From NCBI GenBank assembly GCA_944381495.1, contig CALWLJ010000003.1, forward strand, positions 62,001-126,000: a stretch of 64,000 bases of DNA, read 5' to 3'. Origin of the DNA: an uncultured Mediterraneibacter sp. Lineage in GTDB: Bacteria > Bacillota > Clostridia > Lachnospirales > Lachnospiraceae. Under the pieces are notes generated by a model. That model saw only the letters and a program-made list of their open reading frames with translations, made no database searches and was not told the DNA's origin. Positions 15,006 through 54,247 of the stretch are shown piece by piece (position 1 is the stretch's first letter; each line of letters starts with the position of its first letter). The position numbers were made by a program, and so were the translations under genes.

Positions 15006-15506
15006 ATGAATGACGCTTTATATGAACAGCTTATAGCACGCAGACCAAAACCTTACGATCTTCCCCTTCGTATACTTATAATCTTTGTGATCGTGGCAGT
15101 AGCAGTTTTCGGTACGCCTTTTCTCGGTTTCCTGTCGTTTTTTATCGCAGTGATTCTGGCGATTCTGGCATACTATTTTGTTTTTCCGAAGCTGAATGTT
15201 GAATTCGAATACATTCTTCTGAATCATGATCTCCAGATAGATGCCATTTACAACAAGGCAAAGCGGAAAAAGAAACTTAATATTGATATCCAGGGAGCGG
15301 AAATCATTGCTCCGAAAAAATCTCCCCGGATGAATTCCTACAAACCTGAAAAGACGATGGATTTTTCATCTGGTAATCCAAATGCAAAGACTTACGCTAT
15401 TATGATCTCTATGAATCAGAACAATACATGCATCTATTTCGATCCGGATGAGAAGATGATAGATCACATGAAGCAGTGGATGGGAATGAAGATGTTTACA
15501 GATTAA
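15006..15506 (+). CDS. Small membrane protein, DUF6106-like
   Basis: 166 residues. Two adjacent hydrophobic segments (about residues 20-58, LRILIIFVIVAVAVFGTPFLGFLSFFIAVILAILAYYFVF) form a hairpin in the membrane, followed by a soluble region of about 105 residues with a Lys-rich patch (NKAKRKKKLNID). The soluble part (FEYILLNHDLQIDAIYNKAKRKK) recalls a short PH-like domain. It closely follows the PucR-type regulator (2 bp), so the two are cotranscribed. The DUF6106 assignment is from memory of this neighbourhood in Lachnospiraceae. Function unknown. Confidence 0.75.
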   Translation: MNDALYEQLIARRPKPYDLPLRILIIFVIVAVAVFGTPFLGFLSFFIAVILAILAYYFVFPKLNVEFEYILLNHDLQIDAIYNKAKRKKKLNIDIQGAEIIAPKKSPRMNSYKPEKTMDFSSGNPNAKTYAIMISMNQNNTCIYFDPDEKMIDHMKQWMGMKMFTD

Positions 15507-16084
15507 ATCTGGGTTTGTTTCAGAGACAGCGACAAATCCGCAGCAAGAAGTTTATATGAGATGTAGTCCGCAGGAAGGGCGGATGCTGTAACGCGGTGCA
15601 GAGCTCCACTTATACAGCATCCGCCCTTCCTGCTACTTTATTCAGATAAGAACTTCTTACAGCAGATATGAAGTGTCTCTGTAAGAAACCCCTGGATTCA
15701 GCCGATAGTTCAAAATTGAACAACGTAGCAAATTTAAAACGAATTACCGGCTGAACATTCTGGATTAATCCCGGATTTGAGCATGGAGACCGTGTTGGAC
15801 CTGGAACGGAAATTAAAAATTGGATAAAATGAAGCGTGAGTGCAGATGTATTACGGAAGGATGCGTTAAGCAGGAGCAGACGAAGACATTTCGTGCGGAT
15901 TGTTAGAAGGCACAGACAGGAGTCCCTTTGGACAAGTGTCTGTGCCTTCGTTATAATCCGTCGAAATGGCTGAGGAAGCGGGCGCCGCATCCTGAAGGAA
16001 TACATCTGCACTCACGCGTCCCTTAGTCAACAATAAAATTTTACTCCTGATTTTATTCCGGTCTCTGAGACAAACCCAGATTTT
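15505..16084. ncRNA. Large multi-stem structured element, candidate ncRNA or foldback mobile element
   Basis: The gap between two convergent genes is filled by a nested set of inverted repeats. The ends (15505-15527 and 16062-16084) are 23-bp inverted repeats with one mismatch. Inside are a 21-bp perfect stem (15570-15590 with 15613-15633), AAGAAGTT/AACTTCTT around it (15545-15552 with 15651-15658), TTCAGCCG/CGGCTGAA (15697-15704 with 15748-15755), a 19-bp perfect stem (15834-15852 with 15999-16017), GGATGCG/CGCATCC (15859-15865 with 15986-15992), CGGATT/AATCCG (15896-15901 with 15955-15960) and a 13-bp perfect stem (15906-15918 with 15937-15949). No conserved ORF is seen. The strand is undecided: a T-rich stretch follows the right end on the plus strand, and TATATA lies just outside the right end on the minus strand. 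Confidence 0.6.
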
Positions 16085-16086
16085 GT

Positions 16087-16998
16087 TTATATAAGAGTGT
16101 CTGTATATTTGCATGCTGCCAGTGCCGCTACTGCTCCGTCAGCTGCGGCAGTGGTGAGCTGACGCACTTCCTTGGTGCGGCAGTCGCCGGCGGCGAAAAT
16201 CCCGGGATGAGAGGTCATGCAGTCTTCAGCGGCCAGGATGAATCCGCTGCCGTCCAGTTTCACCACATCAGCGAACCGATCATTCTGCGGGATCTGACCA
16301 ACGGCGATGAATACGCCGGATACGGGCAGCCGTGACTCTTCTCCGGTCTTTTTGTGATTCAGAATCAGTGCCTCCACCGCATTTTCACCGACAATTTCTT
16401 TTACCGTAGCGCTAAGGATGAATTCTACATTTTCCTTCTGTTCCAGCCGTTTTACAATACTGTTCTCTCCTCGGAACTCGTCTCTCCTGTGGATCAGATA
16501 CACCTTGCTGCAATAGTTGGAAAGGAACTCAGCGTCCTGCAGAGCCGTGCTGCCGCCTCCGACCACTGCCACTTCTTTGCCTCTGAAAAAGGCTCCGTCG
16601 CAGGTAGCGCAGTAAGATACGCCGGCGCCGGTCAGGCGCTCCTCTCCGGGTACACCCAGATGACGGTGGGTAACTCCTGTGGCAAGGATCACGCTTCTGC
16701 AAGGATATTCCTTTCCTGTAGTTTCGATAACTTTAATCGGGCCTTCGTCGCGGATTCCTGTCACCTGCTCCATTTCTGTTTCTGCCCCCAGTTTCATGGC
16801 CTGATCCAGAAGATTCATGGAGAATTCACTGCCGCTGACGCTGGCGATTCCCGGATAATTTTCCACATTGGTAGAAGAGACAATCTGTCCCCCGAATCCG
16901 GATCCTTCTATAATAATCGTACGTTTTCCTGCCCGCTGTCCATAAATAGCCGCGGTCATTCCGGCGGTCCCTCCGCCGATGATTCCTATATCGTACAT
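16087..16998 (-). CDS. trxB: Thioredoxin-disulfide reductase
   Basis: NADPH-dependent flavoprotein that reduces thioredoxin. 303 residues, standard. FAD-binding GGGTAGMTAAIYGQRAG at the N-terminus, the redox pair CATC at Cys130/Cys133 (SYCATCDGAFF), NADPH-binding VVGGGSTALQDAEFLS, and the C-terminal FAD motif GIFAAGDCRTKEVRQLTTAAADGA. ATG at 16998 follows GGAAAGGCAGG. Its promoter is perfect at -35 and abuts the proC terminator. The gene ends only 3 nt before the large structured element. Confidence 0.96.
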   Translation of the reverse strand: MYDIGIIGGGTAGMTAAIYGQRAGKRTIIIEGSGFGGQIVSSTNVENYPGIASVSGSEFSMNLLDQAMKLGAETEMEQVTGIRDEGPIKVIETTGKEYPCRSVILATGVTHRHLGVPGEERLTGAGVSYCATCDGAFFRGKEVAVVGGGSTALQDAEFLSNYCSKVYLIHRRDEFRGENSIVKRLEQKENVEFILSATVKEIVGENAVEALILNHKKTGEESRLPVSGVFIAVGQIPQNDRFADVVKLDGSGFILAAEDCMTSHPGIFAAGDCRTKEVRQLTTAAADGAVAALAACKYTDTLI

Positions 16999-21840: not shown

Positions 21841-21900
21841 AATTGGGGACGTAGTCAAATGCGATTTGACTACGTCCCCTTTCACAGAATGTTCACATTT
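21841..21900. repeat. REP-like palindrome, copy 1
   Basis: A perfect 16-bp stem, GGGGACGTAGTCAAAT (21845-21860) with its complement (21864-21879), 3-nt loop, then TTTCACAGAATGTTCACA. Copies 2 (40399-40497) and 3 (55704-55782) share the stem; copy 2 also shares the TTTCACAGAA-GTTCACA tail. It sits between convergent hydG and GH31 genes and can act as a two-way terminator. Confidence 0.9.
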
Positions 21901-40398: not shown

Positions 40399-40497
40399 GG
40401 GACGTAGTGAAATTCGATTAGGGACACACTGAAATACGATTGGGGACGTAGTAAAATGCAATTTTACTACGTCCCCTTTCACAGAAAGTTCACAATT
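40399..40497. repeat. REP-like palindrome with degenerate tandem units, copy 2
   Basis: GGGACGTAGTGAAATTCGAT (40399-40418) and GGGACACACTGAAATACGAT (40421-40440) precede a perfect 16-bp hairpin (40442-40457 with 40461-40476, GGGGACGTAGTAAAAT). The tail TTTCACAGAAAGTTCACA matches copy 1. It lies between the convergent esterase and AIM24 genes. Confidence 0.9.
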
Positions 40498-53908: not shown

Positions 53909-53978
53909 AGTTCAGTTGTTCCCGGGGGCCGCTGTCAGGACGGTGTGTTGTCACCTGGATACCGGGAACAGGCCTGAA
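53909..53978. repeat. Hairpin upstream of the rpiB promoter
   Basis: AGTTCAG (53910-53916) pairs with CTGAACT, and GTTCCCGG with CCGGGAAC (about 53918-53925 and 53962-53969). It is adjacent to the 260-bp foldback. Confidence 0.55.
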
Positions 53979-53984
53979 CTGGCC

Positions 53985-54247
53985 AAAACACAGAACCGCT
54001 CTCGAAAACCTTTCTGCGGGGAGGGAGGATGCGTTCGGGCTCCGCTTCGGAAAATAAGGAAAACTAGAAAGTTCCGGGCACGGACTAAAAGCCAGAACAG
54101 GCGGCGAGCAACTCGTTTTACTCAGACAATCTCGCCGCCTGTTCTAACGTCCGTACCCGGAACTTTAAGTTTTGCTAATCTTCCTGTGAAGTCGCCCGCC
54201 CACATCCTCCCTCCCCGCAGAATACGTTTTAGAGACACCTCTGTTTT
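53985..54247. repeat. 260-bp imperfect foldback between dnaJ and rpiB
   Basis: Nested arms around a centre near 54120: AGAACAGGCGGCGAG (54094-54108) with 54131-54145, perfect 15 bp; 54068-54085 with 54149-54166, 17 of 18; AAAACT (54060-54065) with 54168-54173; a 20-bp perfect stem (54012-54031 with 54203-54222); TCTCGAAAAC (54000-54009) with 54226-54235, 9 of 10; AAAACACAG (53985-53993) with 54239-54247, 8 of 9. No ORF with family similarity. It lies 40 nt after the dnaJ stop. It could be an RNA hairpin at the 3' end of the dnaJ transcript or a foldback mobile element. Confidence 0.7.

Follow-up and report, generated by a model that had tools for sequence, protein, structure and literature searches.

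A composite palindrome between convergent genes of a Mediterraneibacter genome is a worn copy of a dispersed family of modular palindromes

Results

The stretch of DNA analysed here, which we call the window, comprises 64,000 nucleotides from an uncultured Mediterraneibacter sp. It contains two convergent genes, one on the plus strand at 15006 to 15506 which belongs to the DUF6106 family (PF19601; its score, 25 bits, equals the curated cut-off), and one on the minus strand at 16087 to 16998 which encodes the thioredoxin-disulfide reductase TrxB (TIGR01292). The gap between them is filled by a composite palindromic element at 15505 to 16083, recognized by its terminal arms, stems and folding and assigned to neither strand, in which two arms lie within one outer stem. 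Its left terminal inverted repeat (15505 to 15527, plus) pairs at 22 of 23 positions with the right repeat (16061 to 16083, minus). The stop codon of the DUF6106 gene (15504 to 15506) overlaps the element by 2 nt, the first two bases of the left repeat (15505 to 15506) being the last two of the TAA; at the other end, the TrxB stop codon (16087 to 16089, minus strand) lies three bases beyond the element.

Among perfect stems of at least 11 bp within 15505 to 16083, there was one of 21 bp (15570–15590/15613–15633), one of 19 bp (15834–15852/15999–16017), one of 14 bp at the very ends (15505–15518/16070–16083), and one of 13 bp (15906–15918/15937–15949). The 21-bp stem is the basal stem of arm 1 (15533 to 15670, minus), which reads as the remnant of a B-type module reduced to that stem, and the 19-bp stem is the basal stem of arm 2 (15834 to 16017, plus). 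Arm 2 encloses the core hairpin module, of A type (15859 to 15992, plus), which has conserved asymmetric internal loops and is among the sequences behind our covariance models R1 and R2. The element folded with a z-score of −17.4 with DNA parameters and −17.3 with RNA parameters, and in each case none of 100 shuffles folded as well. Two open reading frames of the window, of 133 and 82 amino acids, overlap the element; because they run through the palindrome, we took them for chance. An earlier note on this DNA, made from the sequence alone, had described a multi-stem element filling the gap between two convergent genes, with 23-bp terminal inverted repeats carrying one mismatch, perfect stems of 21, 19 and 13 bp and no gene of its own, and each part of that description held.

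A nucleotide search placed the element at four sites in its own genome, namely in the window (contig C3), at C10:56521–57221, at C5:105712 and at C10:25973. The C10:56521–57221 copy, of 699 nt, was the fullest seen there; its single outer stem encloses two modules facing opposite ways, one of B type and one of A type. Where arm 1 of the window element holds a remnant, the G000:C10 copy has a whole module. The two arms of the element hold homologous modules in opposite orientation, that of B type having shrunk in the window to its basal stem. The same search gave matches in 6 of 61 genomes, its own included, all of one genus, and in two of these (G004 and G026) the matches covered the left gene end and the first bases of the outer stem only. 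Across copies the length of the element was about 0.4–1 kb. We concluded that composite palindromes form a family dispersed among gut Mediterraneibacter-like genomes, and that the window element is one of its worn copies.

The conserved module is a hairpin of about 131–144 nt, in which the A and B types have similar asymmetric internal loops and different stems. The reverse strand of the module also matched model R1, at 25.7–44.3 bits. Since any long hairpin might score well with R1, we read individually the 52 matches that make up alignment A6; all 52 looked like members by eye, and 16 of them missed at least one of three crude motif flags. R1 matched in 37 of 58 genomes of the same genus, a count taken without individual inspection of the matches and possibly including reverse-strand ones, and under strict filters, with many of the genomes incomplete, no match was found in the other 21. 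Genome G028 gave 57 R1 matches, which equals the number of candidates scored there. Model R2 matched in 6 of 392 genomes of the order, from 2 of 173 genera: five were of the window's genus, with a weak and partial match in one of them (G010), and the sixth (G401), from another genus of the same family, had four copies with the loop motifs recognizable by eye. This order-wide search may miss copies, because 8 candidates were scored per genome and the filters were strict. The earlier note had proposed a search for homologous copies in Lachnospiraceae; matches were obtained within the genus (R1 and R2) and in one other genus of the family (R2). An exact pattern for the hairpin tip was found in no viral contig and in four stretches of genome contigs (records of the own or near genomes were possibly left out of this set), two from Candidatus Mediterraneibacter stercoripullorum, one from Lachnoclostridium sp. 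An169 and one from Butyrivibrio sp. SIG345. The Butyrivibrio match was counted as chance, since it had no R1 match at E ≤ 1e-9.

The copies were best resolved in G028, a genome of one contig (2,733,858 bases). With one 760-bp copy as the BLAST reference, there were 19 matches of 716–786 bp and 85–100% identity which cover essentially all of it, and many further matches spanning about half of it. Element ends carry a AAATYYGNRTTTGTT-like repeat, and those of the G028 copies form near-perfect inverted repeats, for example AAATTTGTAGTTGTTGGGG...CCCCAACAAATACAAATTT.

Other hairpins of the same general kind were also present. Module C is a dispersed palindrome, with at least 37 matches of about 110 bp and one fragment in G029, where scoring covered 40 of 138 candidates. 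By a loose motif search, module C was recovered in all 40 loci examined, 36 from G029 and 4 from other genomes, and its flanks were complementary by eye in most of them, though not in L272 and L278. We distinguished further module types, D and E, by eye. The window itself holds a second palindromic element (within 53910 to 54240), in which a shortened family-C palindrome at about 53910–53985 lies beside an element of module-D type, again by eye, with 20-bp arms at 54012–54031 and 54203–54222. At 2636 to 2725 of the window, a family-C palindrome without a tip adjoins a tRNA gene (2485 to 2555, minus). Two near-identical 16-bp hairpins, GGGGACGTAGT...ACTACGTCCCC, lie between convergent genes at 21845 to 21879 and 40442 to 40476 and are apparently a third, small repeat. 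In G029, the hairpin GGCGCGGCTTGG...TTACCATT...CCGCGCC recurred 3′ of family-C palindromes at three loci (L254, L257 and L273). In G000, three loci (L313, L315 and L316) carried a further type of element with the same core module and other outer arms and ends; that at L316 is between tandem genes.

The position of the window element against stop codons was seen at other copies also. By mechanical ORF rules, 27 of the 38 boundaries of the 19 full G028 copies face the end of an ORF, 10 face a start side and 1 faces none. At 19 of these 27 gene-end boundaries, the element either shares one or two bases with the stop codon or directly adjoins it; at the remaining 8 the stop codon is 2–138 nt away. 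In the window's own genome, under the same rules and by our reading, six of seven loci inspected were between convergent genes and the seventh was between tandem genes. The proteins of the DUF6106 gene and of a DegV gene that also borders elements ended by eye at about the same last residue in species with and without the element, and on this agreement the gene ends that abut the elements look native.

Elements occupy the same two gene ends across many species. By our own reading of 30 loci, taken from the 52 matching genomes, the DUF6106 gene is followed in 13 of 30 species by a flush outer stem of the window type; G027 has at this locus a bare hairpin only, consisting of the outer stem, and other species have unrelated terminator-like sequence or different neighbours. 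After the DegV gene, a window-type outer stem was present in 14 of 28 species, and in five more (G080, G063, G007, G072 and G066) the stem was of another kind, accompanied in four of them by a module C that looked intact. At the DegV locus of G006 and G016, only about ten bases apparently separate the two stop codons, which share a single small palindrome; this arrangement hints at the form an empty site could take. The recent origin that the earlier note considered does not fit the window copy, because diverged relatives share its locus in several other species.

Comparison of sister species revealed differences within elements. Relative to the window, the orthologous element of G029 lacks the stretch aligned with 15559 to 15758, so that arm 1 was either lost in G029 or gained in the window. 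At the L004 locus of G000, module C (a 110-bp match) is inside a small hairpin; the same hairpin is empty in G029, where module C is elsewhere in the same gap, in opposite orientation and without module A. At the C10/C118 locus both flanking genes aligned one way and the element the other, from which we concluded that the element is inverted between the two species. No before-and-after pair was found for insertion of a whole element; the insertion-like differences were of modules within elements.

The module covaries strongly, in the manner of an RNA, with a pattern of substitution more like that of DNA. Alignment A6 contains 52 modules, 49 of them distinct, and is fitted to the structure of R1; counted in cells, which are sequences and not independent events, 94.9% pair, 656 are double-changed relative to a mean of 183 in shuffles and at most 115 in slid controls, and only 36 standard cells are changed on one side. 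A double change was seen in 40 of the 42 pairs given by RNAalifold. Conservation of the loops depends on orientation, as it does in RNA. Taken alone, such covariation would normally be read as RNA. For comparison we used the tmRNA of the same genus, taking the 30 best-scoring sequences from the 52 genomes with one above the cut-off. Relative to this control, which is more conserved than the module, G-U pairs made up 2.4% of paired cells in the module vs 10.5% in tmRNA, and one-sided changes were 5.4% of standard changes vs 47.4%. In columns at least 90% paired, the difference in G-U had a Fisher p of 1.6e-31, and G-U and A-C cells numbered 39 and 11 on the modelled strand of the module vs 262 and 8 in tmRNA. 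Covariation that is almost exclusively Watson-Crick, with little G-U, fits a palindrome kept at the DNA level better than an RNA; as G-U cells still outnumber A-C cells, some constraint specific to one strand may also act. A structured RNA would combine compensatory change with ordinary use of G-U; the module had strong double changes and little G-U. Passages of PMC8794818 describe template switching as able to alter both sides of a stem in one event.

Searches for RNA and transcription signals gave little. At the gathering score, Rfam models matched only two tRNAs in the window and nothing over the element; at E ≤ 10 there were 11 matches on the element, all far below the gathering score, and on 10 related loci there was no match. 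ROOL, GOLLD and OLE, with which the earlier note had compared the element, are among the Rfam families, and the element matched none of them. Promoter-like sites were no more frequent in the window element than in shuffles. One promoter-like match lies inside the A-type hairpin, and its second hexamer, TATAAT, is present in 6 of the 52 A6 sequences. Between 15400 and 16200 there were no intrinsic-terminator-like sites, that is, a G+C-rich stem followed by a T run; a role of the element in ending transcription is possible.

We found no target duplication at the 19 G028 copies (observed mean 1.63 vs 1.22 after permutation, a value reached in 5% of permutations). HUH and RAYT enzymes aside, nothing that might mobilize the element, such as a transposase, was identified. 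In 9 genomes searched for exact matches to one end pattern, which with no mismatch allowed misses most ends, no insertion sequence with element ends was recognized; from the same matches, facing pairs of ends were regularly about 520–760 bp apart. One facing pair in G028, 2.2 kb apart, encloses a gene for an Rpn (PF04754) protein, and all six PF04754 genes found in G028 (L057, L058, L134, L137, L138 and L147) lie between element-type ends. At these six loci nearly identical upstream sequence abuts the element, and at three of them (L137, L138 and L147) the downstream end is truncated or bare. The six copies are so alike that they look like one recent expansion. Among 30 fetched PF04754 loci, with flanks of up to about 1.5 kb each, the module was present at only two, both from G028, and two genomes with 14 and 9 R1 matches (G004 and G064, respectively) had no PF04754 match. 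Rpn was therefore rejected as a general mobiliser for the genus and counted as a peculiarity of G028; since 28 of the 30 Rpn loci are without the module and R1-positive G004 and G064 are without PF04754, Rpn is probably a passenger.

Discussion

In our judgement the family probably consists of non-autonomous repeats, DNA palindromes of a foldback- or MITE-like type built up from hairpin modules, with the window element as a worn member. We base this reading on the dispersed copies with shared terminal repeats, the placement at stop codons and mostly between convergent genes, the opposed homologous modules of the two arms, the module differences and inversion between sisters, and the Watson-Crick covariation. 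The foldback mobile element that the earlier note had also offered drew support from the dispersed copies, which are nearly identical and carry terminal repeats; the target duplications expected at its flanks were not found. Occupation of the same two gene ends in many species counts against a mobile palindrome, as it would also suit a conserved functional element.

Such a functional element could be one maintained by the host at 3′ ends, a bidirectional terminator or insulator of convergent genes which grew by palindromic duplication and whose mobility is secondary. The position at stop codons, mostly between convergent genes, the persistence at the same two gene ends, and the bare outer-stem hairpin at the window locus of G027 all favor it, as does the enrichment in Escherichia coli of inverted repeats just 3′ of stop codons, mostly parts of intrinsic terminators, according to passages of PMC6060812. 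A short hairpin would suffice for that purpose, however, leaving the 0.6–1 kb length and the conserved internal loops unexplained, and with no terminator-like site at 15400–16200 and many near-identical copies in one genome we regard this explanation as possible but rather unlikely. For a structured noncoding RNA family of the ROOL, GOLLD or OLE kind, transcribed from the gaps and acting as RNA, one can point to the asymmetric internal loops, the double changes in 40 of 42 pairs (656 cells vs 183 in shuffles), the folding z-score of about −17, and the 39 to 11 preponderance of G-U over A-C on the modelled strand. These same pairs are nevertheless far poorer in G-U than those of tmRNA; moreover, neither the element nor the 10 related loci match Rfam, there is no promoter-like excess, modules nest in each other, sister species differ in the orientation of one element with respect to the genes beside it, and copy number differs widely, with dozens of copies in G028 and no match in 21 of 58 genomes. 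The large noncoding RNA of the earlier note is thus very unlikely, its G-U steps being few.

Two further explanations concern how copies would move. A classical MITE, an internally deleted insertion sequence with a DDE transposase, moved by its parent, would have terminal inverted repeats, a length of about 0.4–0.8 kb and many copies, as here; we nonetheless judge it improbable, since the 19 G028 copies show no target site duplication, the exact search of 9 genomes with one end pattern, which misses most ends, recognized no insertion sequence with these ends, and the conserved part is an internal hairpin and not the ends alone. Movement with or through the Rpn PD-(D/E)XK nucleases is suggested by the six G028 genes between element-type ends, by the three truncated or bare downstream ends, and by the link of E. 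coli Rpn proteins to RecA-independent horizontal transfer described in parts of PMC5350276. We give it very little credence, because the module is at 2 of 30 Rpn loci, both in G028, where the six Rpn copies look like one recent expansion, because G004 and G064 have R1 matches without PF04754, and because Rpn proteins are described, in parts of PMC10327210, as anti-phage toxin-antitoxin systems.

If the element is a mobile palindrome, the conserved bulged hairpin may be what a trans-acting enzyme recognizes, its substrate being probably single-stranded DNA or a cruciform. Repair by template switching from one strand of the hairpin to the other would keep it palindromic while changing both sides of a pair at once. 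Insertions would survive at convergent gene ends, or be targeted to them, because neither a reading frame nor a promoter is broken by a palindrome in that position. Copies could then become points at which the DNA rearranges locally, and may contribute to transcription termination. We suggest, as a speculation that may well prove wrong, that these elements represent a new class of mobile DNA which works as a folded strand, in which an enzyme recognizes bulged hairpins and places them inside small palindromes that sit flush against the stop codons of genes; there the hairpins would nest and swap cassettes, and template switching would mimic the covariation of RNA.

The ROOL, GOLLD and OLE RNAs are large and ornately folded. 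The element is like them in size and ornate folding only, and is unlike them in its lack of an Rfam match, its repeat behavior and its DNA-type covariation. The ERIC or intergenic repeat units of enterobacteria are medium-size imperfect palindromes in intergenic DNA. They belong to another host group and are far smaller than the element, with units of 127 bp and 168 bp given in an abstract, and we set them apart by description. With MITEs and foldback elements the element shares terminal inverted repeats, multiple copies and the lack of a convincing ORF (ORFs were listed for the window, and other copies were judged by length and fold), and it differs from them in having no target duplication found, no parent recognized, bulged hairpin modules and self-nesting. 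Nearest in lifestyle, as intergenic palindromes in contact with stop codons, are the REP, BIME and REPIN sequences with their RAYT (TnpA-REP) transposases. In passages of PMC3733652, REPs are described as extragenic palindromes of 20–40 bp that bear a GTAG or CGTC tag, form inverted hairpin pairs and lie chiefly where neighbouring genes are convergent or unidirectional; frequent G-T pairing in the stem is cited, and GTAG ends often supply a stop codon. The module here, in contrast, is about 131–144 nt and the element about 0.4–1 kb, G-U is rare, and REP size and tags are not found. On account of its size, the rarity of G-U and the failure to find a target duplication we file the element as a larger, modular variant of palindromic mobile repeats, and not as a member of the REPs, the MITEs or an Rfam family. 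The open PMC subset, which gives partial coverage, yielded no description of elements like these from Mediterraneibacter or Lachnospiraceae; one may be in print.

Covariation is a common basis for claiming new structured RNAs, and a palindrome family such as this one would very likely pass such tests, yet behaves like mobile DNA. A simple way to separate RNAs from DNA palindromes is to set the share of G-U against that in a control, here the tmRNA of the genus. Why palindromes of half a kilobase and more repeatedly lie right against stop codons is a testable question, and a single gut genus with several palindrome families is a good place to look for the enzyme.
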